NCBI GenBank assembly: GCA_947503935.1
Contig: CANNFR010000004.1
Coordinates: 186,001 to 250,000, forward strand
DNA length: 64,000 bases
DNA from: an uncultured Paracoccaceae bacterium
GTDB taxonomy: Bacteria > Pseudomonadota > Alphaproteobacteria > Rhodobacterales > Rhodobacteraceae
Direction: 5' to 3'
Shown: positions 17,855-37,338 of the stretch, in pieces
How positions within the stretch are numbered: position 1 is the stretch's first letter
How the letters are laid out: every line of letters begins with the position of its first letter
The notes under the pieces: model-generated
Told to the model about the DNA's origin: nothing
Seen by the model: the letters and a program-made list of their open reading frames with translations, nothing else
The model's database searches: none
Program-made: the position numbers and the translations under genes

Positions 17855-17948
17855 CAGGATCTCCTTTGTATTCTCGAAATTGAATATGATAGGATTACCC
17901 TCAAATCGCAAGGAAATTGGAAGGTTGGCAAATGTTAGTGCAAGCCGT

Positions 17949-18935: not shown

Positions 18936-19298
18936 CTAACTTAAGAGTTCTACGGAGCTAACCTGTTTATCAAATTCGATATTCAGTAGTCGTGCTGTTA
19001 ATGAAGCTAACTTTGCGCGCCTGATCAGATTGGAAACATCAGCATGCGGATCATGGTGCATTGTGCTCGAAAACTCACTTAAAATTGCTGCTATACCGTT
19101 AACTGATTGCAAAATTAGATCAAATTTCTGCAATTCGCCTAACTCGCGGCTTCCTGGTGCAGCGATGCCTGTTTTGATGAGTTTGGGAAAAAGAACTTCT
19201 TCCAAACGTCGGAGATCTGAACAAATGCAGTACAATTCTTCAGAGATGCGACTGATGGCATCCGCTGCCATTAAGGGTTCATTCTTGATTTCAGACAT
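18936..19298 (-). CDS. Hypothetical helical protein at the end of the chemotaxis operon
   Basis: 120-residue soluble, mostly helical protein I do not recognise. It has repeated amphipathic segments (ISRISEELYCICSDLRRLEEVLF and FDLILQSVNGIAAILSEFSS) and no signal peptide. Its start overlaps the preceding CheY stop as TGATG, so it is translationally coupled to the response regulator. A role as a CheY partner or phosphatase (a functional CheZ/CheX analogue) is a guess from position; no phosphatase motif is visible. Confidence 0.7.
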   Translation of the reverse strand: MSEIKNEPLMAADAISRISEELYCICSDLRRLEEVLFPKLIKTGIAAPGSRELGELQKFDLILQSVNGIAAILSEFSSTMHHDPHADVSNLIRRAKLASLTARLLNIEFDKQVSSVELLS

Positions 19299-19684
19299 CA
19301 GAGTGGGCCTACAACTTGCTCAATGCACGTCTTCATTTGCTCTTTCGTAAAGGGTTTTAAGATCATGTTGTTCATCCCGAGGGACCGACCCTTCGCCATC
19401 ATCGTTTCGTCTGCGCGGCCCGTGACAAGAATGAAGCCTGTTCGCTCAATTCCCTTCGTCGTTCGTAGTCCGTGAAGTAATCCCAAGCCATCTAGACCCG
19501 GCATATAGTAATCCGAAATCACCAGGTGGACGGGGCTTTGCGAAATAGCCTGAAGCGCTTCTTTGCCGTCATTGCAAGTTTGATAGTTTTCTATTCGTAG
19601 CCAATCGAGCACTTGGGTAATCAGGCCGCGGCTGACTGCGGTATCATCGACCACCATTATTCTCAGTTGATCTTTGCGTGACAT
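19298..19684 (-). CDS. cheY: CheY-like single-domain response regulator
   Basis: Receiver domain of 128 residues with no output domain. The acidic pair is in MVVDDTAVSR, the phospho-acceptor aspartate in LVISDYYMPGLDG, the threonine switch in ILVTGRAD and the conserved lysine in ILKPFTKEQ. It follows cheR by 45 bases on the same strand. It is one of two stand-alone receivers in the operon; which one acts on a target such as a motor, GTPase or enzyme cannot be told. Confidence 0.93.
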   Translation of the reverse strand: MSRKDQLRIMVVDDTAVSRGLITQVLDWLRIENYQTCNDGKEALQAISQSPVHLVISDYYMPGLDGLGLLHGLRTTKGIERTGFILVTGRADETMMAKGRSLGMNNMILKPFTKEQMKTCIEQVVGPL

Positions 19685-19729
19685 AGGTTTTCCTTGCTCG
19701 CCTAGAAGCCGTCTGGGGCCTGTCGCTGC

Positions 19730-20584
19730 TTACTGTCTTACGTAGGTCGTGATGCCTGTGGCCGACATCTGGCTGGCCGCAGGGCCTGAAACACGCTCGG
19801 AATGCCCGATCATGATATGACTGCCCGGTGGCATCAGATCCACAAACCGGCGCCAGAGGATTTCTTGTGTCGGTCTGTCGAAGTAAATCACCACATTTCT
19901 GCAGAAAATCACATCGAAGGGTCCTTTCATTGGCCATTTTTCAAGCAGATTCAGCTGTTTGAATGTGATCAAGGCTTTTACCTCATCACTGATGCGGATG
20001 TGATCTTCGTCGTTCTCAACGGGATCGGTATACTTCTGCATAAGGCGCTTTGATATGGTCTGCTTTGTTGTTGCAGGGTAAACTCCTGTCTGCGCTCGGT
20101 TGACCATGTTTCTATCTATATCCGTCGCCAGAATTCGAATATCCAGCTTTGCGGCTTCGGGACATGTGCCGAGGATCGTTAGTGCCAAGCTGTAAGGCTC
20201 CTCCCCGGATGAGCATGCCGCAGACCAGATCCTGACACGGCCACCGGCCCGAGCCCTAGCTATAAGATCTGGGAGCAGATTTTCTTCCAGAAATTCGAAG
20301 TGATGACGCTCACGAAAAAATGCAGTTACGTTCGTTGTGATTGCCAGGATCAGTTCTTCCCGCTCATCTTTGCCATCGCTGCCCTCTACAAGCGTGCAGT
20401 AGCTATCGAAGTCCTTCAGCTTGAGAGACCTGAGCCGCTTTGCAAGGCGTGAATAAACAAGCGGGCGCTTGGTGTCGTGGAGAACGATTCCGGCAGTTTT
20501 GTGCACAACCGCGGCGATGCGGCGGAAGTCTTCCGCACTCATCTCAAATTCACGGACTGCCTCCGTCGGCGTTACGGCATTCAT
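19730..20584 (-). CDS. cheR: CheR-type protein-glutamate methyltransferase
   Basis: SAM-dependent methyltransferase of 284 residues that in chemotaxis methylates receptor glutamates. The helical CheR N-domain is followed by the Rossmann catalytic domain with the SAM motif IWSAACSSGEEPYSLAL and the FDVIFCRNVVIYFD signature. No TPR extension is present. Its start overlaps the cheW stop by four bases. No methyl-accepting receptor or CheB esterase is encoded in the window, so its substrate must lie elsewhere. Confidence 0.95.
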   Translation of the reverse strand: MNAVTPTEAVREFEMSAEDFRRIAAVVHKTAGIVLHDTKRPLVYSRLAKRLRSLKLKDFDSYCTLVEGSDGKDEREELILAITTNVTAFFRERHHFEFLEENLLPDLIARARAGGRVRIWSAACSSGEEPYSLALTILGTCPEAAKLDIRILATDIDRNMVNRAQTGVYPATTKQTISKRLMQKYTDPVENDEDHIRISDEVKALITFKQLNLLEKWPMKGPFDVIFCRNVVIYFDRPTQEILWRRFVDLMPPGSHIMIGHSERVSGPAASQMSATGITTYVRQ

Positions 20585-21048
20585 GCTGCCGCCCCGCCTG
20601 CTTTTGGCAGAAGCTGCGTGATATCTATTTGCCGAATAAGCCTTTTTTCCTTCGCTATAACGCCACGAATAAAAGTGCGCGCAGTATCGGATGCCACATC
20701 AGGGGTTGGTTGGATTTCGGATGCAGGAATGCTGAGAATATCGGTGACAGCTTCAATCAACAGACCCGCGATCTGTGTCCCAATCGTCGTGACGATTATG
20801 ACATTCCGGTCGTTTGCGGCGATTGGCGGCAGGCCCAGACGCGATGCTAGATCGATAATAGGGACAACAGAGCCGCGAAGATTGATCACGCCTTGTACGT
20901 AACTGGGTGCGTGAGGCAAACTCGCGGGCCGGGTCCAGCCACGGATTTCACGGACGGACAGGATATCAAGGCAAAAATCCTGATCTGCGGTTTTGAAGAC
21001 GACCAATTCTTGGGTGTCAGGGTCAGCTGTATCGTTTGGGTTTCGCAT
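20581..21048 (-). CDS. cheW: CheW scaffold protein
   Basis: 155-residue CheW-domain adaptor linking CheA to receptors. The family landmarks are FCLDILSVREIRGW near the N-terminus, APSYVQGVINLRGSVVPIIDL and VIIVTTIGTQIAGLLIEAVTDIL. It follows cheA by three bases and overlaps cheR by four. Cytoplasmic. Confidence 0.95.
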   Translation of the reverse strand: MRNPNDTADPDTQELVVFKTADQDFCLDILSVREIRGWTRPASLPHAPSYVQGVINLRGSVVPIIDLASRLGLPPIAANDRNVIIVTTIGTQIAGLLIEAVTDILSIPASEIQPTPDVASDTARTFIRGVIAKEKRLIRQIDITQLLPKAGGAAA

Positions 21049-21051
21049 TTT

Positions 21052-23145
21052 TTACTCCGCGGCTACCGGCTGCAGCGCCGAACGTTGAGAGGATGATGGA
21101 TTTGCCAAATCGCTTGGATCAAGGATCAGCGCGACACTGCCGTCACCCAAAACGGTTGCTGCGGCGATGCCCGGAATATGGCCGTAGTTTCCTTCCAATC
21201 CCTTAATGACGACCTGACGCTGATCGCGAATGCCATCGACCATCAGAGCCAGGCAATCATCGTCATCACGCTCGACCAGAACGACGATCGAGCCGCAATC
21301 GGATGCTGTAACCTCACGAAAACCAAGGCGCGTTCCAACGTCTATCAGCGGCACGAACGTACCGCGTACGTCAAGAACCGTGTCACCGGTTCCGATGCTG
21401 TGTTTCGCCTCGGCTTCAGGACGCAGTGTTTCAATGATCGAGCTTACGGGCAGCACCAAAAGCTGACCTGAAACCTCGACAACCATACCGTCCAAAACGG
21501 CGAGAGTGAGCGGGAGACTGATCGTCAAAGTCGTACCCTCCCCACGAACGGACGCGATGGAGACGCGGCCACCTAGACCAGCGATCTCGCTCTTTACGAC
21601 GTCCATGCCGACACCGCGCCCGGAGAGGTTGGAGACCTCAGAGGCAGTTGAGAAGCCAGGCAAGAAAAGGAGATTGTCGATTTCGGATGGTGTGAGATCG
21701 GCAGAAGCCGGAATTAGGCCCTTACTGATTGCCACTTGTTTGACACGGTCACGATCGATACCACCGCCGTCGTCGGACAACGTGATGAGAACGCGGCCTG
21801 AGCGATGTGCGGCCGACAACGTGACAACACCCTCCTCCGATTTGCCGGACTCCAGGCGCTTTTCCATCTTTTCCAAACCGTGATCGACCGCATTTCGGAT
21901 CATATGCGTTAAGGGGTCGGCAAGGCGTTCGATAATCGTCTTGTCGACTTCGGTCATTTCGCCTTCGGTGATCAGGCGCGCTGTTTTATTGGCAGCAGCG
22001 CTGGCTTCCCGCACGATCCGATGCATTCGGTCAAAAAGCGGTTTGACCGGTTGCGCGCGGATCGACATCACGCTTTCCTGAATTTGTCGCGAGAGCTGGC
22101 GGAGTTGGTCAAGACCCCGCTCGACCTCGGCTTCGATCCGCAGGCCGGATTGTTCAATGGCTTCGCTCAGCATTGCTTGGTGAATCACCAACTCGCCCAC
22201 GACATCCACGAGACGGTCGACACGCTCGATATCCACACGAATTGTCTGTCGTGGGGCGGCTGTACTTCCCGATTTGGACTTTGCCGCTTCCGCTTTCACG
22301 GGCTGCGGCGCGAGTTCGGACACCTCAGCAATCACGTTCTCTGCGGTGTCTTGCGGTTCTACGAGGTCGGGGAGGGGCGGCAGGTCGGGAACGGGCGCTT
22401 CGATTTCGCTGATATCGAGTTCGCAATCGTCCTTGGCAAAATCAAAAACCTCTTCAATTTCGGCCAGCGAATGTTCCGTCAGTAGGTCGGCGGTCCAACC
22501 GAGGTAGGACTTGTTGGGATCAAAGGCAGTGGCGTCCGGTAATGCGCTTGCGTCGATTGTCGTGCTCAATGTGCCCAATTCGGCCAATTGCTGCAGCAAT
22601 AGGGCAGCGTCATGGCCTGCATTTATCGCAGAGTCCTTTGGTTTGAGCGCAATGCGGAAATTACGCCCCTCTGGCCCAGTGACAGGCAGCGGAAGATCGA
22701 GGTCGAGCGCCAGCGGCGCGAAAACGGGTGCGCTTATCTCAACGCTGTCTGCAGGAGCGTCATCCTGACCGCCTGCCATGTTAAGCGCGGCGATTGCTTT
22801 TTCACTGGCCGAGGGATCAGTCTGAACGCCGTCGCGCGCTGCAGCCACCAGGTCCGCGAGATGGTCACCCGCAACGAGAAAAGCTCCGAAAAGGGTTGGA
22901 TTGGTCTCAATGCGCGATGCGCGTACATCATCAAGGACGGTTTCAAATTTGTGCGCGAAATTCACCAGATCGGCTAGCGCGAACGCTCCAGCGCCGCCTT
23001 TGATCGAGTGGACCGCGCGAAAGACGGCATTGACCGTTTCAGGGTCGGTCGAGCCAGCTTCCAGTTCCCTCAGGCCCTCGTCCATCGCGACCAGAAGGTC
23101 TTCGCACTCGACGAAAAAGACGTCTTTCAGGTCAATGCTTGACAT
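21052..23145 (-). CDS. cheA: Chemotaxis histidine kinase CheA
   Basis: 697-residue CheA. The N-terminal Hpt domain has the phosphorylated histidine at residue 46 (AVHSIKGGAGAF). A long acidic linker follows at about residues 130-320, without a clear P2 domain. Then come the dimerisation helices, the ATPase domain (HMIRNAVDHGLE, DDGGGIDRDRV, SGRGVGMDVVKS) and a C-terminal CheW-like domain. I start at the ATG giving MSSIDLKDVF; the longer frame overlaps cheY. It sits between cheY and cheW with gaps of seven and three bases. Confidence 0.96.
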   Translation of the reverse strand: MSSIDLKDVFFVECEDLLVAMDEGLRELEAGSTDPETVNAVFRAVHSIKGGAGAFALADLVNFAHKFETVLDDVRASRIETNPTLFGAFLVAGDHLADLVAAARDGVQTDPSASEKAIAALNMAGGQDDAPADSVEISAPVFAPLALDLDLPLPVTGPEGRNFRIALKPKDSAINAGHDAALLLQQLAELGTLSTTIDASALPDATAFDPNKSYLGWTADLLTEHSLAEIEEVFDFAKDDCELDISEIEAPVPDLPPLPDLVEPQDTAENVIAEVSELAPQPVKAEAAKSKSGSTAAPRQTIRVDIERVDRLVDVVGELVIHQAMLSEAIEQSGLRIEAEVERGLDQLRQLSRQIQESVMSIRAQPVKPLFDRMHRIVREASAAANKTARLITEGEMTEVDKTIIERLADPLTHMIRNAVDHGLEKMEKRLESGKSEEGVVTLSAAHRSGRVLITLSDDGGGIDRDRVKQVAISKGLIPASADLTPSEIDNLLFLPGFSTASEVSNLSGRGVGMDVVKSEIAGLGGRVSIASVRGEGTTLTISLPLTLAVLDGMVVEVSGQLLVLPVSSIIETLRPEAEAKHSIGTGDTVLDVRGTFVPLIDVGTRLGFREVTASDCGSIVVLVERDDDDCLALMVDGIRDQRQVVIKGLEGNYGHIPGIAAATVLGDGSVALILDPSDLANPSSSQRSALQPVAAE

Positions 23146-23152
23146 CGGTGCC

Positions 23153-23521
23153 TCACCAAGCCGCGACGCGCCGAATGGCGGCGACAAGCGACGTCTCGTT
23201 GAACGGTTTGACGATCCAACCTGTGGCGCCGGCAGCGCGCGCACGCTGCTTTAAAGGTTCGGCGCTTTCGGTGGTCAGAACGAGAATAGGCGCGCGGCTG
23301 GAATGTTCGCCGCCGCGGACAGCCTCAATGACGCCAAAGCCATCCATGCGCGGCATGTTCAGGTCGGTCACGATCACATCTGGCTTGGCGTCCGGCAAGC
23401 ATTCAATGGCGTGAACGCCGTCTTCGGCAATAGCCACTTCAAAGCCGGCTTCGGTCAGAACGTGACGAAGCAATTCCCGCATTGTAAAGGAATCGTCGAT
23501 AGCAAGAACACGCAAGGTCAT
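23153..23521 (-). CDS. cheY: CheY-like response regulator
   Basis: 122-residue single receiver domain. It has the acidic pair in LAIDDSFTMREL, the phospho-acceptor aspartate in VIVTDLNMPRMDGFG, the threonine in LVLTTES and the lysine in WIVKPFNE. The closest pattern is a CheY of the type encoded next to CheA. The ATG overlaps the STAS gene stop by four bases, so the two are coupled. Probable phosphorylation partner of the adjacent CheA. Confidence 0.94.
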   Translation of the reverse strand: MTLRVLAIDDSFTMRELLRHVLTEAGFEVAIAEDGVHAIECLPDAKPDVIVTDLNMPRMDGFGVIEAVRGGEHSSRAPILVLTTESAEPLKQRARAAGATGWIVKPFNETSLVAAIRRVAAW

Positions 23522-23790
23522 GCGGAGCCTCCTGAAAGCAGGTCTTCTGCGCCGAGGGTTCGCAGGCCTTCCAGAAAGGCGTCCGACGGCGACAGAAAGT
23601 TGAGTTGCTGTCCATTGGCCCGGCAGGCCTGATCGGCGACCAGAAGGACTTGCAAGGCCGTCGCACTGATATGACGCACATCGCTGCAATCCAGCTCAAT
23701 CGTGCTGCCGGTTTTGTCCGACAGATCGTTCCACAAGCTGACGGCCGCATCATGGGCCAAGCGGCGTTCAAGCCGGATCGTGGATGTCAT
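23518..23790 (-). CDS. STAS-domain protein (anti-sigma-factor-antagonist-like)
   Basis: 90-residue STAS domain. The hallmark segment TIELDCSDVRHISATALQVLL holds the serine or threonine that is phosphorylated in SpoIIAA-like antagonists (HISATAL here). It is the first gene of the chemotaxis-like operon and is coupled to cheY. Similar small STAS proteins open roseobacter and other che operons; whether it is switched by a kinase, possibly the Ser/Thr kinase 5 kb upstream, is inference. Confidence 0.88.
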   Translation of the reverse strand: MTSTIRLERRLAHDAAVSLWNDLSDKTGSTIELDCSDVRHISATALQVLLVADQACRANGQQLNFLSPSDAFLEGLRTLGAEDLLSGGSA

Positions 23791-23973
23791 TGTTCACCTC
23801 AAGACAGCAACGCGGATGTTGACGCAGGCCTGCCGGCCGCTTGATCCGCGCCGTCTATGTGGACGGTGAACTCTGAACATTGTCTTTACTCGACCAATAA
23901 TTCGGCCGGGCTTTCCAAGAAAAATCGATCAGGTTTTTCTCTTTTTGGGTCTCGACCCTTTCGGCAGGCGCCA

Positions 23974-24825
23974 TTAACCGCTGCGATTCGCGCCTTTCGA
24001 CCAGTTGGCGATGACGCCCGTCAGATCTGTGCGCGCAACTGACGCAGCCGCGATTCCTGCTTTGTCGGATGCAAAGCAGAGGGCCGGCGCGTCATTGGAT
24101 CTATTGGCCATCACGACCAGTCGGCGACCGGGCATCACACCATCCATAAATGGGGCGGTCATCGAAATCTGCGAAGCAAGACGCTTGGCCAGAGCTTCGG
24201 GTGGCAGTTTTCCGTCGCCTGGATTGTTGGATGTAACCTCACCCTCGTTATTGGCCATAAGATGACTTTGTGCCGACCCATCGGCCGCCGCAAACAGGGC
24301 ATCGGCCGCGTCGGCTATCGCAGCTATTTCAGCAGTTTTCGCCGGTGCGGGAGGCGGGCTGTCATCCGTCGCCGGGGCGGGACTGCCTGCCGCCTTGGCC
24401 AAATCATCCGCTTCAAAACCCTTATCGACGATACTGGGCGGCAGATTTGAGGGCAGCGATTGCACGTTCAACTGACCCTCGCTTTCGGAGAAGCCAAAGA
24501 TCACATGCGACATCGCCGCACACAGAGCTTCGCCGGTCGTACCGCCCTCTGCCAACCGTTTATAGGTTTCGGATTGCGGAACGTTGCCGCTGATGTCGCC
24601 AAACCGGACAGCCCGCCTCGCCCGAACCTCCACAACCAGCTGCGCGCCATCTTCACGTGTGAAATTCAGCGCCCGTGGCAACATCGTCTCATCGATTTCC
24701 GTGAGAATGGCGGTGAGCCGTCCCTTCGCATCCGAGCCTTTCAGCTTTCGCACCGCATTATGTTGAGGGGTTGCGGCGGTTTTCGCGCGCGACAGGATTT
24801 CGGCAAGTTTCTCCTGGTCAATCAC
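23974..24825 (-). CDS. Hypothetical protein coupled to the GTPase genes
   Basis: 283-residue cytoplasmic protein with no domain I can name. The N-terminal 130 residues look globular (including LTAILTEIDETMLPRALNF and LVVEVRARRAVRFGD). An Ala/Pro-rich linker follows, then a C-terminal part (KRLASQISMTAPFMDGVMPG, RRLVVMANRSNDAPALCFA). I choose the GTG at 24825, which overlaps the preceding stop in a GTGA arrangement; a longer frame inside the neighbour is unlikely. The coupling suggests it works with the roadblock-like protein and GTPase. Confidence 0.75.
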   Translation of the reverse strand: MIDQEKLAEILSRAKTAATPQHNAVRKLKGSDAKGRLTAILTEIDETMLPRALNFTREDGAQLVVEVRARRAVRFGDISGNVPQSETYKRLAEGGTTGEALCAAMSHVIFGFSESEGQLNVQSLPSNLPPSIVDKGFEADDLAKAAGSPAPATDDSPPPAPAKTAEIAAIADAADALFAAADGSAQSHLMANNEGEVTSNNPGDGKLPPEALAKRLASQISMTAPFMDGVMPGRRLVVMANRSNDAPALCFASDKAGIAAASVARTDLTGVIANWSKGANRSG

Positions 24826-25229
24826 GGTCTGGTCCCCGCATTCTCGGTGATAATCGTGCGCATCTGGGTCAGCAGGCCTGCCGGGTCGGACAGATCGCGC
24901 GAGATTACACAAATGACCTGGTTGGGATTTTCGTCCATTCGCAAAAAGACGTGAGCTTGGTCGTCAGTCAGAACAAGCATGTCTTCGAAATACGGTGCAA
25001 AGGCATCATCGACGCCGGCCGCATGCCGAAACATATCTTCAATCTGGACCATATGAGTGCTTTCAAAGGCGTTCATCACAGCCGAAGCGAGCGTTTCGGC
25101 ATCGTCACGCGAATAGTGATTTGCAGGCAAGGCACCGCGGAGCATCGCGACTTCCAGATCGATGTATCCCGTAAAGACACAATCCGAGATCTCGGCCTGA
25201 GCAGTTTTTAGAACATCCTCCAGAGCCAT
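24822..25229 (-). CDS. Roadblock/LC7-like small protein
   Basis: 135-residue cytoplasmic protein. Its layout resembles a roadblock/LC7 fold: an N-terminal helix (ALEDVLKTAQAEISDCVFTG), a strand-turn-strand (YIDLEVAMLRGAL), a central helix (DAETLASAVMNAFEST) and C-terminal strands and helix (DQAHVFLRMDENPNQVICVI, DPAGLLTQMRTIIT). Roadblock proteins such as MglB commonly regulate an adjacent small GTPase, and a GTPase gene directly precedes this one. I start at the ATG giving MALEDVL. The fold assignment is by pattern and is moderately sure. Confidence 0.6.
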   Translation of the reverse strand: MALEDVLKTAQAEISDCVFTGYIDLEVAMLRGALPANHYSRDDAETLASAVMNAFESTHMVQIEDMFRHAAGVDDAFAPYFEDMLVLTDDQAHVFLRMDENPNQVICVISRDLSDPAGLLTQMRTIITENAGTRP

Positions 25230-25230
25230 C

Positions 25231-26622
25231 CTAGACCGCCTCCGCCGAGGTCGACCAAGCGAAGTCACGCGATAATTGCAACATCAAGATGGCGGCATCC
25301 ATGCAGGGACGTTCGCCCGGCTCCATTTGCAGAAGTGACAGGGTGACAAAGGCCTCTTCGACCTGTGTGCGCATCCATGGCGCCTCCTGCCGAAAGGCAT
25401 TGCGGTCCGCCGTCAGAAGGGACAGTTCGTCGCCCAGCTCTGTGATTTTTGTCATGAACTCCCAATCCTTGAAGCCATCCTTCTTGGCGTAAGCGATCAG
25501 GTCGTCCAGTCCTTCGACAAGGCGCTCAAGCGATGGCGAGGCGGTCAGCGGAATGTCATTTTTGCTATCTGCGACTTCAGCCTTTGAAGCCTTGATCTTG
25601 GTTGCTGGCACCGGCTCAGGCGCGTCGGCCAGAGGTGTTTCGGGCTCTGATTTTGATGGTTGCGGCGTCTCGGCCTTGGGCGTCCGCGTGACCGGAATAC
25701 GCATTACACGCGGTTCGGGCACCTCTATCGGGCCGCTTGGCCCGTCAAATGCCGCAAGTGCATCGAAACCAGTCCTGGCCAGATCGCCCGCCGCCGCGAT
25801 GTCGGCTTGGCGCACGGCGCGGCCCACCGTCAGCAAGGCGCCGACTGTCGCGCGCCCGCCACTGGCATCCCATGCGGCGGCATCGGTCACGCGCCCCGAC
25901 GGGGCCGCGTCAAGCGCTTGAACGGTCGAAATACCCACGACCGAGTGGAAATTGCCCCGCGTGATCATCGCCAGACGTTCCGAGATCGTCTGTTCGGATT
26001 TGCCGGCAGGGGCCACATCCAGATGCGTCGCGACCAGAAGACTACGCTCCTGCAGGCGTTTGGGCACTAGGGACCAGAGCTGCCATTCGTCGTCCAGCCA
26101 GGGGTTCTTGGCATTGGTGCACCAGATCAATGCGTCGGCCCGGCTGGCCACCCACCGCATCTGCTCTTTCTGGGCCGTCCAGTCGTCAATGCCTGGCATG
26201 TCGAGAAAGCTGATATATTGCAGAACCGGATTGGGCAGCCTGATTTCGACGTAATCAGGCTTGTGAGAGACCGCCGCCTCGAAATCGATCTCCTTTTGCG
26301 AGATCTCGACGCCGGTCCACCACCCCGCGATGCTTTCCGCGCGATTTCCATGGCGCAGAATAACAGGAACATTTCTGCCATCGCCGGTTTTCAGCGGGCG
26401 ATAGCTCTGCCCGGCTAGGAAAGACGCAAGTGAAGATTTTCCCGATCCGGGAAGCCCGACAATAGCGATGCGCACCGGGTTTGCGATGCGCAGCGCCAAA
26501 CGCTGCACGCGCTGTCGCAACGCTTTCAGATTTGCATCGGCCGCGGCATCTTCGGGTAGATCGACTGCCAGAAACCGCTCTAACTCCGCAAGTTCCTTTT
26601 CGGCACTGGGGAAAGGCGTCAT
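25231..26622 (-). CDS. Dynamin-like/TRAFAC GTPase
   Basis: 463-residue GTPase. The P-loop GLPGSGKS is at residues 56-63, the G3 motif DMPG at 141-144 and a G4-like THLD at 199-202. Before the P-loop is a helical segment (residues 8-50). After the G domain comes a Pro/Glu-rich linker (about 300-355) and a helical C-terminal domain ending near the stop. No membrane segment is seen. The pattern is that of bacterial dynamin-family or Era-like GTPases with a variable tail. It leads the unit GTPase-roadblock-like-hypothetical, which runs into the che genes on the same strand. Confidence 0.85.
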   Translation of the reverse strand: MTPFPSAEKELAELERFLAVDLPEDAAADANLKALRQRVQRLALRIANPVRIAIVGLPGSGKSSLASFLAGQSYRPLKTGDGRNVPVILRHGNRAESIAGWWTGVEISQKEIDFEAAVSHKPDYVEIRLPNPVLQYISFLDMPGIDDWTAQKEQMRWVASRADALIWCTNAKNPWLDDEWQLWSLVPKRLQERSLLVATHLDVAPAGKSEQTISERLAMITRGNFHSVVGISTVQALDAAPSGRVTDAAAWDASGGRATVGALLTVGRAVRQADIAAAGDLARTGFDALAAFDGPSGPIEVPEPRVMRIPVTRTPKAETPQPSKSEPETPLADAPEPVPATKIKASKAEVADSKNDIPLTASPSLERLVEGLDDLIAYAKKDGFKDWEFMTKITELGDELSLLTADRNAFRQEAPWMRTQVEEAFVTLSLLQMEPGERPCMDAAILMLQLSRDFAWSTSAEAV

Positions 26623-26857
26623 TCAGGCAGGTCTCCAATGGTCAATGCTGCGCAGCAGCGCGCCACATTCTCATATTCGCAGACCTGTGGAAATACTCTA
26701 GGGGATTTCCTGCATCCGGTGCGATGAAGTTCGCGCAAATGACCGATGGCAGAATGCCGTGCCCTGAACAAGACGGTATCAGTTGGGTTGGCCGTGGCAG
26801 AATCCCGATACGGAGCGCGTATCACAAGAGGGTCACCAAACATGCGACATAGCCGCC

Positions 26858-27625
26858 TTACTTTATCTTGATCACCACCATCGAGATATTGTCCTGATCG
26901 GGGTGTTTCAGGCTGTGGACGGCCTTGATCAAGGCTTCAGCTATATCGGCACTGGTCTTTTTCTGGTGCTTCTTCAGGACAAGGGCGATTTCCTTGTCAG
27001 TCAGGAATTGCAGGCCGTCGCTGGCTACGACAACCAGGTCGTCTTTTTGCAGAATTGTGGGTTCTGTCGGGCAATCGATCAGCGGAATGCGGCGGCCCAT
27101 CACAACCGATGTCAGCGAGTTACGATCGGGATGGTTCATCGCTGTTTCTTCATCGAGCTGGCCGGTTTTCACCATCAGATCGATCTGGGGCGCGAGAGAA
27201 TGGTCGTCGTTCAGCTGCTTCAAGGTGCCTTTGCGGTAGTGGAACAGGGGCGAGTCGCCGATGGATATCCAGTGAAGGCGGCTTTCGAACAAAATGGGCG
27301 CCACCAATGTCGCGCCCATACCGCGCAAATCGGGGTTCTGCGAGACATGGGCGTCGATGCAATCATTTGCACCCTGGGCCGCGCTGCGGAGAACGTCATC
27401 AACGTCACGCTCAAGCGCTTCGACATCGCCCATTTGCAGTTTCAATTCGCTGAAAACCTCGGTCACCACGATCTTGCTGGCGACATCGCCCGCGGCATGA
27501 CCACCCATACCGTCCGCAAGGACGGCAAAGCCGAAAGGGTTTCCGATGTTGAAATCGGCGATCACCGCGTCTTCTTGGTAATCGCGCTGGCCAACGCTGA
27601 TGGCCGTCGCTACGTCATATTTCAT
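26858..27625 (-). CDS. PP2C-family Ser/Thr protein phosphatase
   Basis: 255-residue PP2C (PPM) phosphatase, metal-dependent and cytoplasmic. Motifs seen are GQRDYQEDAV, VLADGMGGHAAG with the metal aspartate at residue 38, DDHSLA, DLVVVASDGL and the terminal DQDNISMVVI. It follows the FHA gene by 25 bases and most likely reverses phosphorylation by the Ser/Thr kinase two genes upstream. This kinase/phosphatase/FHA trio is the one used in type VI secretion and TerY-type systems, but no secretion genes are in the window. Confidence 0.95.
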   Translation of the reverse strand: MKYDVATAISVGQRDYQEDAVIADFNIGNPFGFAVLADGMGGHAAGDVASKIVVTEVFSELKLQMGDVEALERDVDDVLRSAAQGANDCIDAHVSQNPDLRGMGATLVAPILFESRLHWISIGDSPLFHYRKGTLKQLNDDHSLAPQIDLMVKTGQLDEETAMNHPDRNSLTSVVMGRRIPLIDCPTEPTILQKDDLVVVASDGLQFLTDKEIALVLKKHQKKTSADIAEALIKAVHSLKHPDQDNISMVVIKIK

Positions 27626-27650
27626 GCTGTCCGTTTGCCGCGCCTAATTT

Positions 27651-28505
27651 TTATGCCTTCTTGTCCCACGAGAAACTCTCACCGCAGAGTGCCACCAAAC
27701 GCAAGGTCGTTTCCCCTATCTTGACCTCATCCCCATCTTTCAGCCGCTCAGTGCTCAAGAGTGGTTTCCCGTTCAGTCGAACAAGATTCGATTTCCCGCC
27801 ATGTCCTATGAAAAATGTGTTTTCTTCGGGGTCAAATGCGATCGCAGCGTGGTTTTCTCGTGAAATTGTTGTATCACCGAAGTCCAGTTGAATGGCTTGA
27901 TCCTCTCCGCGTCCAATCTGAGAGGCTCCGGCCTGGATCGGGATTGACGCACCTCGGCCCGGGCCGCCAATGACGACCATCCAGCCGACGGGGAACATGA
28001 TCTCTTCGGTCTTTACGCTTTGTGACGCTTTTTCAAAGACATCCGTTGCTTGCGGGTTGGCATGTTCAAAGCCTAGAAGACGTGTTTTGACGCGCCCCCC
28101 TCCGCTGCGGGCGGTGGGCTTTGGAGCGGGAGGCGGCGGTGCGGGCGTAACTGCTTGCGGCGCTGTTTCGACGGGCAGGGCCGGTTCGGGTGGTACTTCA
28201 ACAGATGGCCCCTTATCTACCGACGTGGCTGGGGCGGTGGGACTGTCCGGCGCGGGATCGGCGCGCGGTGGCTCACGATCGTTCTCAGCGGGCTCGGCCA
28301 CAAGATCCCACATGCTTACCGCTTCGGAGGCTTGTGAATCTCGAGGTTTTTCAATACTATCAAGGGGTTCTGCTTCAGGTCCGGCGTCACCCAAACGGGT
28401 ATCGGCCTGATCCTCTTGACCGGATTTGTCGGCCTCAGGCGGCGAGGAGCCCCGCCGCTTTAATGCTCTCAACTTGTGCAGTACCGACATATCCGGATTA
28501 TCCAT
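27651..28505 (-). CDS. FHA-domain phosphothreonine-binding protein
   Basis: 284-residue cytoplasmic protein. A long acidic and proline-rich N-terminal region (about residues 1-135) precedes a C-terminal FHA domain with the canonical SQIGRGEDQ, TTISRENHAAI and LNGKPLLST...LKDGDEVKIGE segments. The conserved Gly-Arg, Ser and His that contact phosphothreonine are present. It sits between the kinase and the phosphatase and is the likely reader of kinase output. No membrane segment. Confidence 0.92.
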   Translation of the reverse strand: MDNPDMSVLHKLRALKRRGSSPPEADKSGQEDQADTRLGDAGPEAEPLDSIEKPRDSQASEAVSMWDLVAEPAENDREPPRADPAPDSPTAPATSVDKGPSVEVPPEPALPVETAPQAVTPAPPPPAPKPTARSGGGRVKTRLLGFEHANPQATDVFEKASQSVKTEEIMFPVGWMVVIGGPGRGASIPIQAGASQIGRGEDQAIQLDFGDTTISRENHAAIAFDPEENTFFIGHGGKSNLVRLNGKPLLSTERLKDGDEVKIGETTLRLVALCGESFSWDKKA

Positions 28506-28595
28506 CTTGTGAGACCATTACTCGTACAAAATGCGGAGATACCAAGTATCACCGCGGAAACCCGTTACATAAACCACGCCCTCAGTATCAGAGGT

Positions 28596-30602
28596 CTAGT
28601 CGTTCTTCGCAAGAGACATGGTTGCAATCGTTTCTTCACCGTTGCGCAAAACGCTGAAAACGGCTTCAGGTGTCTGCTCGCGCGCCAGGGTTGCAAGGGT
28701 GGCTTCCAGATCACGCGCAGCATTCAGATCCTGTCCGGTGCTCTGTTCGCTCAGCAGAATATCCCCAACCTCAAGCCCTCCGTTCTCCGGCACGGGGACG
28801 TCGATCACGCTGGTTTGCCAAACACCATCGATCGATTGCGCGCTAAGGGTGATGCCGTCCGCCAAGCTGACATTCAGCCTGATGGGAACAGCCAGCGTCA
28901 CTTCCCGAAATGGGGCCGATCGGTCGGTTTTTATCCGTGCCCCGGCGTATAGATTGGGGCTGTCGCCCGTGATGGAGGCATCTGTCAGTACAGCTTCAAT
29001 TTCCGACTGATTTCTGACGAAGGTTCCGTTCACGGCATAGATGATCACCCCTTCACTTAGCCAAGCATTCTCTGGCGTCGATCGGGCCGCTTCACTGACT
29101 TGGGTGATCTGCGGAAACGACCCGGCAGCGTCTGTCGTGTCCGCTGTGAAGGGCAGGGCGATCTCCCAGTCAGACGCGATAATCTGACGTGGCGATATGT
29201 CTACATCCTGCGTCGCCGTCGGCTGTTCGCCAACGTCGCTGTCCGCGATGTTCTCAATGACTGGCTCATCTGCAGGTTGTTGGGTGGGGGCCTCTTCAAC
29301 GGCCGCTGTATCGGCCGTGGGCGCTTCGTCTTCTGCGGGACTGGTTTCCACCAATGCCAGATCTGGCGTCGCAACGGAGCTCTCGATCGCAGATACGGCC
29401 TGTTGAGTGGGCGTCTCTTCAACGGCACTTGTCGTGCTGGCTGCGTCGGCGGCGCTTGCGGCATCGTCAGAACCAATCTGCGTGACCGCAATGCCGACCC
29501 CTATCACGATGATTGCTGCGGTGCCTAGCAGCATCGCCATCCGGTTCCCGCCTGACTTTTCTTCTTGCGTGACTGAATCAGGCACCTGGGCTTCGTCCGC
29601 AATCTCGCTCGTTGCGGTCGCCGCTGCATCGGCCGCTGGGCTTGTATCATCGCCACGCATTGGAACGACCTTCAACTGAGGCTTGCTGCCGATCATGTCC
29701 AGCCATTCTTTTGCAGACTGAATGCGATCTTTCGGCAATACATTTGCGGCTTTGTCCAGCGCCTCCAGAAAACCGTCGGTGTATCCATCGACCTGACCCG
29801 CCAAATTGACGTACGGATCAGCGCCTTCCTGTGCGATACCGACAAGTCGGGCCTGACTATTTGGCGGCGGCGACCCGGTGATGAGATGATAGAATGTTGC
29901 GGCAATGGCGTAGAGATCACTCGCGCTGCTCTGCGGGCTGCCACTGACATAGAATTCCTGCGGCGAATAACCGTCTTTCACAACCCTGAGAGCCGACAGG
30001 GCTTTGCCGCCGATCACGGTTGCCTGCTGTCGCGCGGCCCCGAAATCGATCAGAATCGGATCACCTGACTTCGTCAGCAGAATATTGTCTGGTGAGATAT
30101 CGCGATGCAGCATGCCATTGTCGTGAACAAATGCGATGGCCCCCAGAACCTTCTTCAGCATCACGACGATAGCGTCTGGTGCCAGGCTTTTGGGGTCGTT
30201 CTCAATAACTTGTAAAAGATCCCGGCCATCAATGTAGTCGATTGCCATGTATGCGGTGTTATTGTCCTCAAAAACCTGGTGAACCCCCACTATGTTGGGG
30301 TGGATCAGGCGTGACAGGCTTTTCGCCTCCTGCACAAAGAGCTTTACGATCTGATTGAACTCTGCCTGGTGGGCGCGTGATCGTGCGGCAACAGACGTCA
30401 GGCTGCGACGACAAAAAGATCCTGGAAAACACTCCTTTATCACGACATCGCGTTCAAGACTATTTTTAGCCAAGTATGTGATACCAAACCCACCTGCGTT
30501 GATGAATTTGACAATCCTGTACTGACCCTGAAGTAGCTCTGTTCCCGGCTTTAATTCGTCAACAAAATCTTCAGCTTTCAGATTTTCCTGATTCTTCGCC
30601 AT
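28596..30602 (-). CDS. Membrane-anchored Ser/Thr protein kinase with PDZ-like periplasmic repeats
   Basis: 668-residue Hanks-type kinase. The glycine loop is at about residues 36-41, the catalytic lysine at 56 (VIKEC), the HRD aspartate at 168 (LHRDISPDN) and the DFG aspartate at 186 (IDFGAARQ). The kinase domain ends near 310. A single membrane helix lies at about 354-377, then a Thr/Ala/Glu-rich stretch to about 500, then an extracytoplasmic region. Two segments there (ending in TLAVPI and in FSVLRNGEETIATM, the latter with EVGDILL) resemble PDZ repeats. I start at the ATG giving MAKNQENLK. It heads the kinase-FHA-PP2C unit and probably senses something in the periplasm. Confidence 0.92.
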   Translation of the reverse strand: MAKNQENLKAEDFVDELKPGTELLQGQYRIVKFINAGGFGITYLAKNSLERDVVIKECFPGSFCRRSLTSVAARSRAHQAEFNQIVKLFVQEAKSLSRLIHPNIVGVHQVFEDNNTAYMAIDYIDGRDLLQVIENDPKSLAPDAIVVMLKKVLGAIAFVHDNGMLHRDISPDNILLTKSGDPILIDFGAARQQATVIGGKALSALRVVKDGYSPQEFYVSGSPQSSASDLYAIAATFYHLITGSPPPNSQARLVGIAQEGADPYVNLAGQVDGYTDGFLEALDKAANVLPKDRIQSAKEWLDMIGSKPQLKVVPMRGDDTSPAADAAATATSEIADEAQVPDSVTQEEKSGGNRMAMLLGTAAIIVIGVGIAVTQIGSDDAASAADAASTTSAVEETPTQQAVSAIESSVATPDLALVETSPAEDEAPTADTAAVEEAPTQQPADEPVIENIADSDVGEQPTATQDVDISPRQIIASDWEIALPFTADTTDAAGSFPQITQVSEAARSTPENAWLSEGVIIYAVNGTFVRNQSEIEAVLTDASITGDSPNLYAGARIKTDRSAPFREVTLAVPIRLNVSLADGITLSAQSIDGVWQTSVIDVPVPENGGLEVGDILLSEQSTGQDLNAARDLEATLATLAREQTPEAVFSVLRNGEETIATMSLAKND

Positions 30603-30955
30603 CACAAGGCACCCTTTTTTACCATTACATAGACGATGGTAACCACTTAGAATTGCACATTTCACTTCTTGAACAAGATTATTATAGCATCCTGAAGCTG
30701 GCGACAATATGGCATATTAGTAAATAAACAAACTACAACCAGAAATTGAAAATATCTTTATAATTCAAGCTATAATTGTTTTTTAAACGATATTTTAAAT
30801 GACGAAATATAAGATCTTCATTGAGCGGAGAAATACAGGTTTTTCAATCTAAAAGTACGAAATTGACGCCACGAAACCTTGCGGCGCAGCCTCAATAAGG
30901 TCATCATTGGCAGATATACATATTAGGCTTACGAGTATCGGTGGCAGGAAGAGCT
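30603..30955. other. AT-rich divergent promoter region
   Basis: About 350 bases between the divergent kinase and PilJ-like genes, far richer in A and T than the flanks, with runs such as TTGTTTTTTAAACG near 30775. No gene or clear palindrome is seen. It should hold both promoters. Confidence 0.5.
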
Positions 30956-31861
30956 ATGTTTTCGACATCTTTTGTGAGATCACGCAGATCATTCCTCTTG
31001 GGGGGAGTTGCTATTTGTTTTTTGTCCAGAGCTGACATGGCGTCTGCTCAGAAGATTTCGGTGGAAGCGACAAAGCTGAAGATCAGACTGGCGAATGATC
31101 TCTATGTCTTGAATGAACGGCTTGTGGCTGAGGCCGCTGCCATGAAAATGGGCCATAACGTTCAAGAGGCGCGGACATTGATGCTTTCAGCTTTTGAGAG
31201 TGTTAATCAGAAGCTGGCGTCGCTAAGCGATGGTGATACATCCGCTGGTTTGGACAAGGAATATAGCGTTGCAGTTCAGTTCATTTTGACTGATCTGCAA
31301 GACGTTTGGAATATTTATGGTGCGGACGTTCAAGCTCTTGCTGGGAAAGATGCGATCACTGTCGAGGACATTGAGAAAGTCCTGGTGGACAATGATGCCT
31401 TTGGTCAGAAGGTGAAGGAGTTGGTCGATATCATTTATGATGTCTACGGTTCCGTAATTTTCAGTACAGAGGATTTGCGAGCATTGACTTTGCTGTCGCA
31501 CGAGAGACGGCATATCGAAAAGATAAAGGAAAATATGGTTCTTGCGGCAGTTCTGCCTGATCGCGAGAAATACGTTGGCGAAATGGTGAGACTGGGCAAT
31601 GTTTTCACGCAAACCATAGATGTGTTGATTAGGAACGGGGCCATGTTCGGAGTGGCATCTCCACCCTCACCCGAAGCGGTGGCAGCGCTGGAGCGTGTCG
31701 AAGCGGATTGGTTGCCAAAAAGCGAGATGATAGTCAAGATCGCCGAAAATGGTGCTATCACGTTGGAAGAAGTCACAAGCTTCTTTGGGAAGGCAGATAC
31801 TGTCGCAGATGGGCTGGATGCTGTCATCGAAGCCTACAATGCGGCCTTGCCACGCAGTTGA
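30956..31861 (+). CDS. Tat-exported PilJ-like (type IV pilus MCP N-terminal) domain protein
   Basis: 301-residue soluble periplasmic protein. A twin-arginine signal (RSRRSFLLGGVAICFLSRA) is followed by two all-helical units. The first (about residues 35-130; RLANDLYVLNERLVAEAAAM) resembles the PilJ/NarX-type helical sensor domain, and the second (about 175-270; LTLLSHERRHIEKIKENMVL) has the same spacing. There is no membrane helix, HAMP or signalling domain, so it may be a free ligand-binding partner. I choose the ATG at 30956, seven bases after AGGA, over the GTG at 30941. It diverges from the kinase gene. The domain call is by pattern. Confidence 0.65.
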   Translation: MFSTSFVRSRRSFLLGGVAICFLSRADMASAQKISVEATKLKIRLANDLYVLNERLVAEAAAMKMGHNVQEARTLMLSAFESVNQKLASLSDGDTSAGLDKEYSVAVQFILTDLQDVWNIYGADVQALAGKDAITVEDIEKVLVDNDAFGQKVKELVDIIYDVYGSVIFSTEDLRALTLLSHERRHIEKIKENMVLAAVLPDREKYVGEMVRLGNVFTQTIDVLIRNGAMFGVASPPSPEAVAALERVEADWLPKSEMIVKIAENGAITLEEVTSFFGKADTVADGLDAVIEAYNAALPRS

Positions 31862-32002
31862 TCCACCCTGGCATTGTGGATTAACTTAGACTTTCTCATG
31901 CAGAATTCAGAAAGATTTGAAGCCAAATTCCAAGATCTGATGTAAATTGATTTCTCCTACGTAGGAAATTCTGAGCCCGACAAGGTAATTGAGGATTTCG
32001 CT

Positions 32003-33613
32003 CTACCGCTGCCAAATCTCGACCCTGCGGTTGATAGCGCGGCCTTCGAACGTGGTGTTGCAGGCAACAGGGGCCAGCTCACTATAGCCTCGGACCTCGA
32101 TACGGGTATTTTCCAACTCACCATTTCTGGCAGCTTCGGATAGCAAATCGGCAACCTGACGGGCACGCTCTTCCGACAACCGCTGGTTTTCGCTAAAAGG
32201 TCCAGCCGAGTCGGCAAAGCCGGCTATATAGAGTGTTTCAGGCTGATTGCGTGCGACATAGTCAACCATACGCGCGATATCGCGGCGCGCCCGATTATCC
32301 AAAAGACTTGACCCCGGCGCGAAGCGAAACGTCGTAGACAAGCGTTGTGTACCGGCTAATTCAGAAATTATAGCCTCTGAAGCGACGCGTTCAGTAGCAA
32401 ATGCAGGCGCCAAGCGAATTGCCCTCATCCTCTCTTCTGTTCTTGAGAGATCCTCTTCAACAATTGACAAGTCGATGAAGCCTGCCTTGGAAACCAGACC
32501 GTCCAGATCTGCATCATCAAGATGATCTAGAAAACCCCGAGCCGTGTCTTGAATATTCGTCCTACTGTAAGCAACGATACGTTTCTCAAGTGGATATTCC
32601 TCATTCTTGATCGTAAAAGGTGAGGCCTCGATGATCATACCACATTCATTCGATAAAGGTATTGCTCGAGTGTCGCGCTTATTGTGATAACCGATCGCAG
32701 CAATACCAAATCGGTCCTCACTTACGGCTGCGGTAAGTTCGCGGTTTGAATTTACTATATTGGCGAAAGACGTCAGATTATAATTGAATGGGCGCAGCAG
32801 AAAATCTTGAATATCGTCTATGTTGCCAGATGTGGGCGAAAACGAGTAAACGTTAATTCTTCCATTTGGGCCGCCCACCTGTGACCAATTGGTGATCTGG
32901 CCGGCAAAAATCGCAGCGACATCTTGAACTGAGATCTCTTCAATCGGATTGTCAGGATGTGCAATCACAGCCAAGCCTTCAACCGCAACAACATGTTCCT
33001 GTTCAAAGCTGGCGAGGTTCCCGCCGCCGGACTGCGCAACCGCTTCTATGTCAGCGGCGCTTGCCGGCCGATCGGTGAAGACGACCGCTGCTTCTTCCGT
33101 TGCCAGAAGGTTGAGGCCGGACCCTTCAGAGGTCTGCAGTAAGCCAAAATTGGCGACCTCTTCACCGTCATAATCCACCATTTGCAACGGGATGCGTGTG
33201 CCTTGACCAAGAGCTGATGACATCTCGTCTTCCTCTATCGGGAAGCCAGTCGCATCCAGGGCAACGATCTCAGCGTCATTTTCCGATGCGAAGCCGTCAA
33301 ACAGGATCGGAATCAGAACTTCAGCGACATCACCGGGCCCGGCGAGGGTGAAGGCATAGTCAAACTCTTTCGGGCGAGGACACGCGGCGCCCTCACAAAC
33401 GACGGCAGACTGACTAACCGTAATCTCTCCGATCGGCGTGCGAAGACGCAGCTGTCCGGCATCGGATGACAAAAGCTGACCCTGAAGATCAAGGCTGCCA
33501 TCTTTCGCGATGATGCGAACCTCTTGAGCGGACACCTGGTTCGCCAAAAGAAAAACCGCTGCGCAGAAGGCTGCAGAATTGCGAAATGCCGATAGGACCA
33601 TCATTTTACCCAT
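32003..33613 (-). CDS. PstS-like substrate-binding/OmpA fusion protein (copy 1)
   Basis: 536-residue exported protein. A signal peptide ends at NQVSAQ. A short beta-rich N-domain with a CEGAACP cysteine pair comes first (about residues 27-75). A PstS/PBP-like domain follows (about 90-340; VAVEGLAVIAHPDNPIEEIS and ITNWSQVGGPNGRINVY), then a C-terminal OmpA peptidoglycan-binding domain (about 415-536; YIAGFADSAG, RAINRRVEIWQR). The layout implies a periplasmic receptor tethered to the cell wall. It is paralogous over its whole length to the next gene. No transporter genes are adjacent, so phosphate import is unlikely. Confidence 0.88.
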   Translation of the reverse strand: MGKMMVLSAFRNSAAFCAAVFLLANQVSAQEVRIIAKDGSLDLQGQLLSSDAGQLRLRTPIGEITVSQSAVVCEGAACPRPKEFDYAFTLAGPGDVAEVLIPILFDGFASENDAEIVALDATGFPIEEDEMSSALGQGTRIPLQMVDYDGEEVANFGLLQTSEGSGLNLLATEEAAVVFTDRPASAADIEAVAQSGGGNLASFEQEHVVAVEGLAVIAHPDNPIEEISVQDVAAIFAGQITNWSQVGGPNGRINVYSFSPTSGNIDDIQDFLLRPFNYNLTSFANIVNSNRELTAAVSEDRFGIAAIGYHNKRDTRAIPLSNECGMIIEASPFTIKNEEYPLEKRIVAYSRTNIQDTARGFLDHLDDADLDGLVSKAGFIDLSIVEEDLSRTEERMRAIRLAPAFATERVASEAIISELAGTQRLSTTFRFAPGSSLLDNRARRDIARMVDYVARNQPETLYIAGFADSAGPFSENQRLSEERARQVADLLSEAARNGELENTRIEVRGYSELAPVACNTTFEGRAINRRVEIWQR

Positions 33614-33760
33614 CCCATTTTCTACGCTTCAGGCAGCTGTATCGTTGTTTGACCAAACGCCAACTAGCTGAGGAAAAGCGGTGACAATTGTTGTGTGCAG
33701 TACCTGAAAAACCCGAAAGTCGCGCGCTGAGTTGAGATCGCGACGCGCGGCTTCCCGCCC

Positions 33761-35371
33761 TTACTTCACCCACATCTCAACGCGTCGATTGGTGCGCCGG
33801 CCTTGTGGCGTGCTATTACAGGCTGCAGGTGACAATTCGCCAAACCCCATTGCGGTGAAGGTGATGTTGTCCAGCTCGTTTTCTTCAGAGGCATTCTGGA
33901 TCTGCCGGATCACCTCTTCCGCGCGCTGCTCGGACACCAGAATGTTGGCATCAAAGGTTCCTTTGTTGTCAGTGAAACCAACCGCAAGAACTTCTTCCGG
34001 CTGACGCTCGTTCAGGTAACGCAGCATGCGGGCCAGATCCCTGCGTGATTTTGCATCAAGTTCGTTTGAACCAGGCGCGAAGCGGAATGTCGTCGAGAGA
34101 CGCTCATACTCGCTCTGACTCTGCATCAATGTCTCCATGTAGCCGCGCTCATAGGGATCTGCCGACTCACTGGCAGCCAAGGCCACACGCTCGGCGGCAT
34201 CCACTTGGATCTCGGAGACAACCGACAGATCAACGAAGCCCGCTTTCGACACCAAGCCATCCAGATCCGGGCCGTCTATATATGCCAGAAAATCGCGGGC
34301 ATACCCTTCTACATCCGGACGGTTATAGGCGTGCACGCGGTGACCCAGGGGATACTCCTCGGTCTTGATGTTGAAGGGCGACACGTAGAATGTCATGCCA
34401 CATTCATTGGTCAGCGGAAGCGCACGGGTCCCACGACGGCTGTGATAGCTGATAACACCGAAACCGGACTCATCGCGGGTGATCGCGGCGGACAGCTCGC
34501 CTGAGTTTCGCACGATATTGGCTTCGGGCGAGAGAGCGTAGTCAAACGGCTCGAGCAAAAGTTCACTGATCGTGTTGAAAGTCTCGGAGTCGCTATCGAA
34601 GCTGTAGAGATTGATCGGTCCTGCTTCGCCACCCAATTGTGCCCAGTCGGTGATAATGCCCGAGAAAACACCCGCAACCTGTTCAATCGTAACGCCGTTG
34701 ATGGCGTTTTTCGGGTTCACGACGACGGCAAAGCCTTCCACCGCGATAACATGATCCTGCTCGTAGCTCCGCAGATCGCCTAGGCCCGCCTCTTCGATCA
34801 AATCGCGTTCGCGCCGGGTTGCCCTGGTATCGCTGAACAGGATGGGTCCTTCACCGCTGACCATCAACTCATAAGCCGGTATACCTTCGGCGCGAATGAT
34901 CCCAAGATTGGCGACCTCTTCGCCCTCATAATCGATGATCTCGATATCCAGTTGGTCTGCTTCGGTGAATTCGTCCATGATGCGATCTGCATCGATCGGC
35001 GCGCCGTTGGTATCGACCAGAACGGTTTCGGCATCCAGAGTGGCTGCAAATCCCTCCGCGATGATGGGCAGCAGCACGCCGGCCACCTCGCCCTCGCCGA
35101 CCAATCTGAGATCATATTCCACATTGCGTTCTTGCGGGCAGGCCGCGCCTTCGCATGTCACAAGCGATTGTTCGATTTCAAACTCGCCGATTGCAGTGCG
35201 GACCAGGAACCGACCGCCTGATGTCGACAACAAGGTGCCCGTGATGTTCAGTGGGCTGTCTTTGCCTTTCAAAACAACTTCTTGTGCGACCGCAGGTTGC
35301 GAAACGCTGAGAAAAGACGCGGCAGCTGTCAATGCCAATGCAAATTGCGACAGACGTAATGAAAGCACCAT
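33761..35371 (-). CDS. PstS-like substrate-binding/OmpA fusion protein (copy 2)
   Basis: 536-residue paralogue of the preceding protein with the same order: signal peptide (ends PAVAQ), cysteine-bearing N-domain (CEGAACPQ), PstS-like domain (HVIAVEGFAVVVNPKNAINGV; IITDWAQLGGEAGPINLYS) and OmpA domain (LAVGFTDNKGTFD; TNRRVEMWVK). I start at the ATG giving MVLSLRL, six bases after GAGGT. The two copies are 147 bases apart on the same strand. Tandem duplication with divergence of the binding domain suggests two ligands or a heterodimer; no ligand can be assigned from sequence. Confidence 0.88.
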   Translation of the reverse strand: MVLSLRLSQFALALTAAASFLSVSQPAVAQEVVLKGKDSPLNITGTLLSTSGGRFLVRTAIGEFEIEQSLVTCEGAACPQERNVEYDLRLVGEGEVAGVLLPIIAEGFAATLDAETVLVDTNGAPIDADRIMDEFTEADQLDIEIIDYEGEEVANLGIIRAEGIPAYELMVSGEGPILFSDTRATRRERDLIEEAGLGDLRSYEQDHVIAVEGFAVVVNPKNAINGVTIEQVAGVFSGIITDWAQLGGEAGPINLYSFDSDSETFNTISELLLEPFDYALSPEANIVRNSGELSAAITRDESGFGVISYHSRRGTRALPLTNECGMTFYVSPFNIKTEEYPLGHRVHAYNRPDVEGYARDFLAYIDGPDLDGLVSKAGFVDLSVVSEIQVDAAERVALAASESADPYERGYMETLMQSQSEYERLSTTFRFAPGSNELDAKSRRDLARMLRYLNERQPEEVLAVGFTDNKGTFDANILVSEQRAEEVIRQIQNASEENELDNITFTAMGFGELSPAACNSTPQGRRTNRRVEMWVK

Positions 35372-35386
35372 TTCTACCTCGACCAC

Positions 35387-35773
35387 TCACCAAACCGGTA
35401 TCGTTCAGACAGTGATTCTCTGAACCAATACCGTTACGTCACCTGATTTCCATTGAATCTCGGCAACAATATGACCAAGCCTCACCAGAAGGTTCGGCCC
35501 GTCGGTATGAACACTCGACAAGGTCATGGGATACAATGGTTAATTTTCACTGAACTGACATGTAAGTCTGAAGGATTTTGTCAGAAAATTGAGGGGGTGA
35601 CGCCGCGGGCTCAGATTTGGCGATGTGCGTCAATTGTTCGCATACGCGTTGAAGGTCATTTTAGTCTCCGGGAATTCTGACATCCAGAGACTGCGCCTCT
35701 CCATGAAAAGCTGGTCTTCCGGCAGATCTTAATGGCACAATTGTGCAGATGGCATCCCAGATCCGAGGCCGAT
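35387..35773. other. Intergenic region, no gene seen
   Basis: About 390 bases between the OmpA-fusion gene and the FAD oxidase, which diverge. Both promoters should be here. The short frames show no domain or good start, and no clear repeat or palindrome was found. Confidence 0.5.
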
Positions 35774-37180: not shown

Positions 37181-37253
37181 GGCTTTGTGCCGGTCGCCTC
37201 AACAGTTTTGTCCAGCCTACAGAGGGCTGACCCCGACCGAGGGTGGGGGTGAA

Positions 37254-37302: not shown

Positions 37303-37338
37303 ATGGCGCTCGTCTTACTATGCTTTAGATTTCAAACC

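Follow-up and report, generated by a model that had tools for sequence, protein, structure and literature searches.

Do the chemotaxis genes and the kinase-GTPase genes that lie side by side in an uncultured Paracoccaceae bacterium form a single signalling system, or are they two systems that have become neighbours? The question is raised by positions 18936-35371 of the window, that is, the whole stretch of 64,000 nucleotides that was analysed. In a preliminary description of this locus, it was proposed that the genes encode a new signalling system in which Ser/Thr and His/Asp branches meet at a GTPase or at a STAS protein. An ORF and translation check of the window found all the named open reading frames at their place and strand, and the following domains scored over the curated Pfam cut-offs: Response_reg (twice), CheR, CheW, the CheA domains, STAS_2, Dynamin_N, PP2C_2, FHA, Pkinase, and PBP_like_2 with OmpA. 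The gene list is thus real, and nearly all its labels were upheld by these scans or, for the roadblock protein, by a structure match. The proposal of a single system is unsupported. With a probability of about 70%, the locus consists of two signalling modules which are neighbours in this genome alone: an ordinary chemotaxis (che) operon and a conserved Rhodobacteraceae kinase-GTPase-roadblock cluster with a putative envelope-sensing wiring. The flanking genes (13998-18136 and 35732-40299), to judge from inspection of their translations alone, bear no relation to signalling: one reads as a flavocytochrome/FAD protein, two as metallo-beta-lactamase-fold proteins, and the others as an FAD-linked oxidase and a NosR-like protein.

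The first module spans positions 18936-23790 and is followed by a short gap:

18936..19298, minus strand, CheT-like protein (CheZ-like CheY phosphatase), last che gene; weak NCBIfam CheT match and QxxDxxxQ motif
19298..19684, minus strand, CheY2; Response_reg 75.7 bits, 48-72% identity to CheY2 of the che operons of other genera
19730..20584, minus strand, CheR methyltransferase; PF01739 224.6 bits
20581..21048, minus strand, CheW; PF01584
21052..23145, minus strand, CheA; Hpt, H-kinase_dim, HATPase_c and CheW domains
23153..23521, minus strand, CheY1; Response_reg 95.8 bits, 55-70% identity to relatives
23518..23790, minus strand, CheS (STAS-only), first che gene; STAS_2 43.9 bits, precedes CheY1 in relatives too
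23791..23973, no strand, gap of 183 bp between the modules (from coordinates and sequence); likely che promoter region

This is a standard alphaproteobacterial chemotaxis operon of the CheS/CheT type. Relatives of its CheA, counted above E 1e-60 across 296 genera of the family, occur in 141 genera, the closest with 65% identity. The order CheS-CheY1-CheA-CheW-CheR-CheY2-CheT has the same core genes in the 15 che loci examined, extends through CheT in most of them, and its core is present in about a dozen other genera. The STAS-only protein CheS and the CheZ-like CheY phosphatase CheT, which carries a DxxxQ motif, are known in Sinorhizobium (S. meliloti) and have been recognised in Agrobacterium (PMC12654446). 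The window operon has in common with this type a CheS gene ahead of CheY1, CheA, CheR and CheY2 and a terminal CheT with DxxxQ, but differs in that CheW is inside the operon and that MCP, CheB and CheD are encoded at another locus. The terminal protein matches the NCBIfam CheT model at E 4e-4 and 20.4 bits, below the cut-off of 200. The QxxDxxxQ pattern is common to all 14 aligned sequences (the window protein and 13 homologues ending che operons), and the window protein carries DxxxQ as FDLILQ within it. By analogy with such systems, CheA and CheW would relay receptor signals to the two CheY proteins, CheY2 acting on the motor and CheY1 as a phosphate sink; CheS would aid CheA in telling these two apart, and CheT would dephosphorylate CheY.

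The absence of flagellar and receptor genes, pointed out in the preliminary description, is true within the window, but the genome encodes two MCP-domain proteins, one of them next to the CheB and CheD genes (C1:198.7-203.5 kb), and a flagellar cluster (FliF, FlhA, FliR) on C2. An orphan or incomplete chemotaxis set is thereby ruled out. Since MCP, CheB or CheD flank the operon in most of the relatives' che loci checked and occupy a separate locus here, the che operon has been split in the window genome. The only CheW matches in the genome are the CheW protein itself and the CheW domain of CheA. Injectisome-type type III secretion genes (G000:C12:101585-107149, in locus L102 starting at C12:93000) are also present, separate from the flagellar genes on C2; among them are a YscJ/SctJ-like gene, an ATPase with a T3SS_ATPase_C domain and a second FHIPEP protein.

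The second module, with the genes that adjoin it, is composed as follows:

23974..24825, minus strand, UNK, module-specific protein; C-terminal half of roadblock-like structure, no Pfam match
24822..25229, minus strand, Roadblock/LC7-fold protein; AlphaFold pLDDT 91.7, Foldseek E 5e-6
25231..26622, minus strand, dynamin-like GTPase, A-type; Dynamin_N 34.7 bits (cut-off 27) and tree placement
26858..27625, minus strand, PP2C phosphatase; PP2C_2, 50-73% identity to module PP2Cs
27651..28505, minus strand, FHA-domain protein; PF00498 36.7 bits
28596..30602, minus strand, Ser/Thr kinase; Pkinase 99.3 bits, PDZ 21.8 bits (below cut-off)
30956..31861, plus strand, PilJ-like exported protein, divergent from the kinase; PF13675 24.2 bits, just below cut-off
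32003..33613, minus strand, PstS-OmpA fusion 1; PBP_like_2 and OmpA
33761..35371, minus strand, PstS-OmpA fusion 2; PBP_like_2 and OmpA, 44% identical to fusion 1

That the kinase-GTPase set forms one system with the chemotaxis genes, joined at the STAS protein or the GTPase, is very improbable. All these genes lie on one strand with only 183 bp between the two sets, a gap in which a search for a consensus terminator found none, and CheA co-occurs with the module marker (UNK) slightly above expectation: CheA is present in 39 of the 65 sampled genera with the marker and in 102 of the 231 others (Fisher p 0.025, kinship among genera ignored). A weak functional association of the module with CheA may therefore exist. 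In four of the 39 genera with both, marker and CheA share a contig; the distance between them is 2.9 kb in the window genome, against 375 kb, 741 kb and 1.47 Mb in the other three. No match to CheA, CheR, CheT or CheS was found in 80 named PP2C loci, each taken with flanks of up to 10 kb. Likewise, module loci inspected in about 45 genomes held no che genes outside the window genome, and none stood beside the short-form module of L037, L038 and L039/L040. Joint conservation of the neighbours, on whose absence the preliminary description itself had staked the fused system, is not seen elsewhere. Moreover, the STAS protein, proposed as a convergence point, is CheS, a member of the che operon, and the chemotaxis system is completed by the MCP, CheB and CheD genes elsewhere in the genome. 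Since marker and CheA are close in the window genome alone among the 39 genera, and since no che gene accompanies the 80 PP2C loci, the adjacency, observed in one genome whose genus is sampled by that genome alone, is best read as a local rearrangement. A fused kinase-chemotaxis system is rejected on this ground.

What remains of interest once the fused system is set aside is the kinase-GTPase-roadblock cluster. This cluster is real, conserved and largely confined to one bacterial family. HMM scans of 20-kb neighbourhoods revealed its full form in dozens of genera, with the genes arranged as STK-FHA-PP2C-A-B-C-RBL-UNK. In this form, GTPase A has about 430 aa, the dynamin-like B about 690 aa, C about 330 aa, the roadblock protein about 130 aa and UNK about 270 aa. 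UNK is the most specific marker of the module: it occurs in 65 of the 296 family genera and, among 398 genomes of the phylum, in seven genomes of the family, with two borderline matches outside it (E about 1e-3). Named carriers include Yoonia, Roseovarius, Leisingera, Ruegeria, Shimia and Tropicimonas. The module is also found on Leisingera and Ruegeria plasmids, where it is annotated just as kinase, FHA, PP2C, dynamin family and hypothetical proteins, the A-type GTPase, roadblock protein and UNK being among those called hypothetical or dynamin family. A search of open-licence full text for the combination of kinase, FHA, PP2C, dynamin and roadblock found no published description of such a cluster, which is apparently undescribed. 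The claim of a new signalling system thus holds for this conserved unit and fails for its fusion with the chemotaxis genes.

Positions 23974-30602 are a short-form copy of this cluster, in which kinase, FHA protein, PP2C, A-type GTPase, roadblock protein and UNK are present in the conserved order. GTPases B and C are missing from the copy, and homologues of both are found at C3 of the same genome. The short form is shared with the closest relatives, L037 and L038, and is present in fragments in L039/L040. In the kinase, a single membrane helix near residue 355 separates the cytoplasmic kinase domain, whose VIK, HRD and DFG motifs are intact, from a C-terminal PDZ-like part. In the PP2C, the metal-site residues are intact, and DGMGGH, SDG and DN are invariant among the module PP2Cs. 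A second kinase-FHA set, which has no PP2C, is located in the window genome at G000:C6:242.8-252.2 kb (L052), with a PstS-OmpA fusion and a DctP-type solute-binding protein between FHA and GTPase.

The window GTPase (463 aa) qualifies as a bacterial dynamin-like protein, with Dynamin_N over its cut-off and the motifs GLPGSGKS (P-loop, G1), DMPG (G3) and THLD (G4), and it groups in the tree with the A-type GTPases beside L037 and L038. It keeps the DxxG of G3, which is not recognisable in most A-type GTPases of relatives (e.g., L043:9583-11025) and is retained in B and most C proteins. In those relatives, A may thus be a degenerate GTPase, hinting, as far as motifs can tell, at a regulatory rather than an enzymatic role.

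The roadblock protein has no significant Pfam match. Its AlphaFold model, which follows the order helix-strand-strand-helix-strand-strand-strand-helix, has its best PDB matches in Roadblock/LC7, MglB and Ragulator subunits, which confirms the label originally guessed from sequence. For UNK, the model is less certain (pLDDT 84.1, pTM 0.61). Its residues 166-283 weakly match MglB-type folds, with Foldseek E-values from 1.8e-3, and a second structural comparison with MglB gave Z 8.3 and 3.6 A over 102 residues. These predicted structures are suggestive, not conclusive, of a roadblock-like topology in the C-terminal half of UNK. Profile comparison did not support sequence homology between UNK and the roadblock protein; the likeness is one of fold, weak and limited to that half.

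The PilJ-like and PstS-OmpA genes (30956-35371) probably belong with the kinase module, and genes of both kinds adjoin it in L043, L110, L126 and L145. The PilJ-like label is borderline for the window gene (Pfam cut-off 26.6) but family relatives pass, such as that of L043 with 97 bits. In both PstS-OmpA proteins, the two domains score over cut-off, as the preliminary description had labelled them. This family is present in 180 of the 296 genera, mostly unlinked to the module, which weakens the case for PstS-OmpA as a module-specific sensor. In two module copies (L050:15507-17920 and L249:13787-16203), PstS-OmpA is replaced by solute-binding proteins, one of which weakly matches SBP_bac_3 and starts with a LysM-like part, suggesting that the periplasmic inputs of the module are interchangeable.

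Several known systems share parts of this gene set. The PpkA/PppA/Fha proteins of type VI secretion also comprise a membrane Ser/Thr kinase, a PP2C and an FHA protein encoded together, and the cluster could be such a threonine phosphorylation switch, serving type VI or another kind of secretion. The FHA protein gives a TagH match, but at 19.3 bits against a cut-off of 120.25. The window contains no T6SS gene, no secretion gene was recognised among the annotated neighbours of the module on two plasmids, and the triad is coupled instead to dynamin-like GTPases and roadblock proteins, so that a secretion switch is highly unlikely. Nor did Pfam scans of the window genes reveal a vWA-domain (TerY-type) protein among the named genes. 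Alternatively, kinase-gated dynamin-like GTPases could serve in defence or stress. The kinase scores against the PD-T4-6 and MAD6 kinases, B and C of relatives weakly match LeoA and LeoBC, and the module occurs in several copies in one genome and on plasmids. However, the kinase-domain matches are unspecific and no other cluster protein of the window has a specific defence match, the PstS-OmpA matches to ZorB reflecting the shared OmpA domain; gene order kept in dozens of genera is more like core physiology. We consider this explanation unlikely. Related PP2C genes, many of them accompanied by FHA and kinase genes but not by the GTPase and roadblock genes, were also detected in Hyphomicrobium, Gammaproteobacteria and Verrucomicrobia (L202-L237), suggesting that kinase, FHA and PP2C are an older triad to which GTPases were added in the Rhodobacteraceae cluster.

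Roadblock proteins set or scaffold the state of GTPases in MglA/MglB and Rag/Ragulator. As in MglA/MglB and the actinobacterial conservons (CvnA-D), a protein of Roadblock/LC7 fold is encoded here beside a GTPase, but the latter is a Dynamin_N protein and not small and Ras-like, the kinase is of the Ser/Thr and not the histidine type, and two roadblock-type proteins are present. Tandem dynamin-like GTPases such as B and C of the relatives' clusters are also found in Cj-DLP1/2 and LeoABC, whereas the window copy keeps the A-type alone and combines it with a kinase-FHA-phosphatase set and with roadblock proteins. Bacterial dynamins usually work in pairs (PMC6104087), which B and C of the relatives fit.

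Gene content, folds, intact catalytic motifs and conserved order are the ground from which we infer the wiring and function of the kinase-GTPase-roadblock cluster. Envelope-side proteins (PstS-OmpA anchored to peptidoglycan, the PilJ-like protein and the PDZ-like part of the kinase) would inform the membrane kinase of the state of the envelope or of a ligand; with one membrane helix and a PDZ-like C-terminal part, the kinase could sense the periplasm directly or via PstS-OmpA and PilJ-like partners. It would then phosphorylate its partners, the FHA protein docking on phospho-threonine and PP2C resetting the phosphorylation. As output, the A-type dynamin-like GTPase would change its nucleotide state, for which the two roadblock-type proteins may form a platform, either as GAP or as scaffold. 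The switch would, in most relatives, control the dynamin-like pair B/C acting on the membrane; the output of the window copy, whose cluster lacks both, may differ. We tentatively propose, at somewhat less than even odds, that the cluster is an undescribed system in which a membrane Ser/Thr kinase, an FHA reader and a PP2C control dynamin-like GTPases via a two-protein roadblock platform, the window carrying its short form. Such control would, as part of the same tentative reading, be a bacterial counterpart of Rag-Ragulator or MglA-MglB in which the same logic operates on dynamins.

To our knowledge, the signals and regulators controlling bacterial dynamins are largely open. The chemotaxis half of the locus is ordinary and should not be counted in the kinase-GTPase pathway. 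If the proposal is true, a conserved pathway that has no name yet leads from Ser/Thr phosphorylation to dynamin-like membrane GTPases in about a fifth of the sampled Rhodobacteraceae genera, and the cluster, which encodes kinase, reader, phosphatase and roadblock regulators together, would be a compact and testable answer to how bacterial dynamins are controlled.
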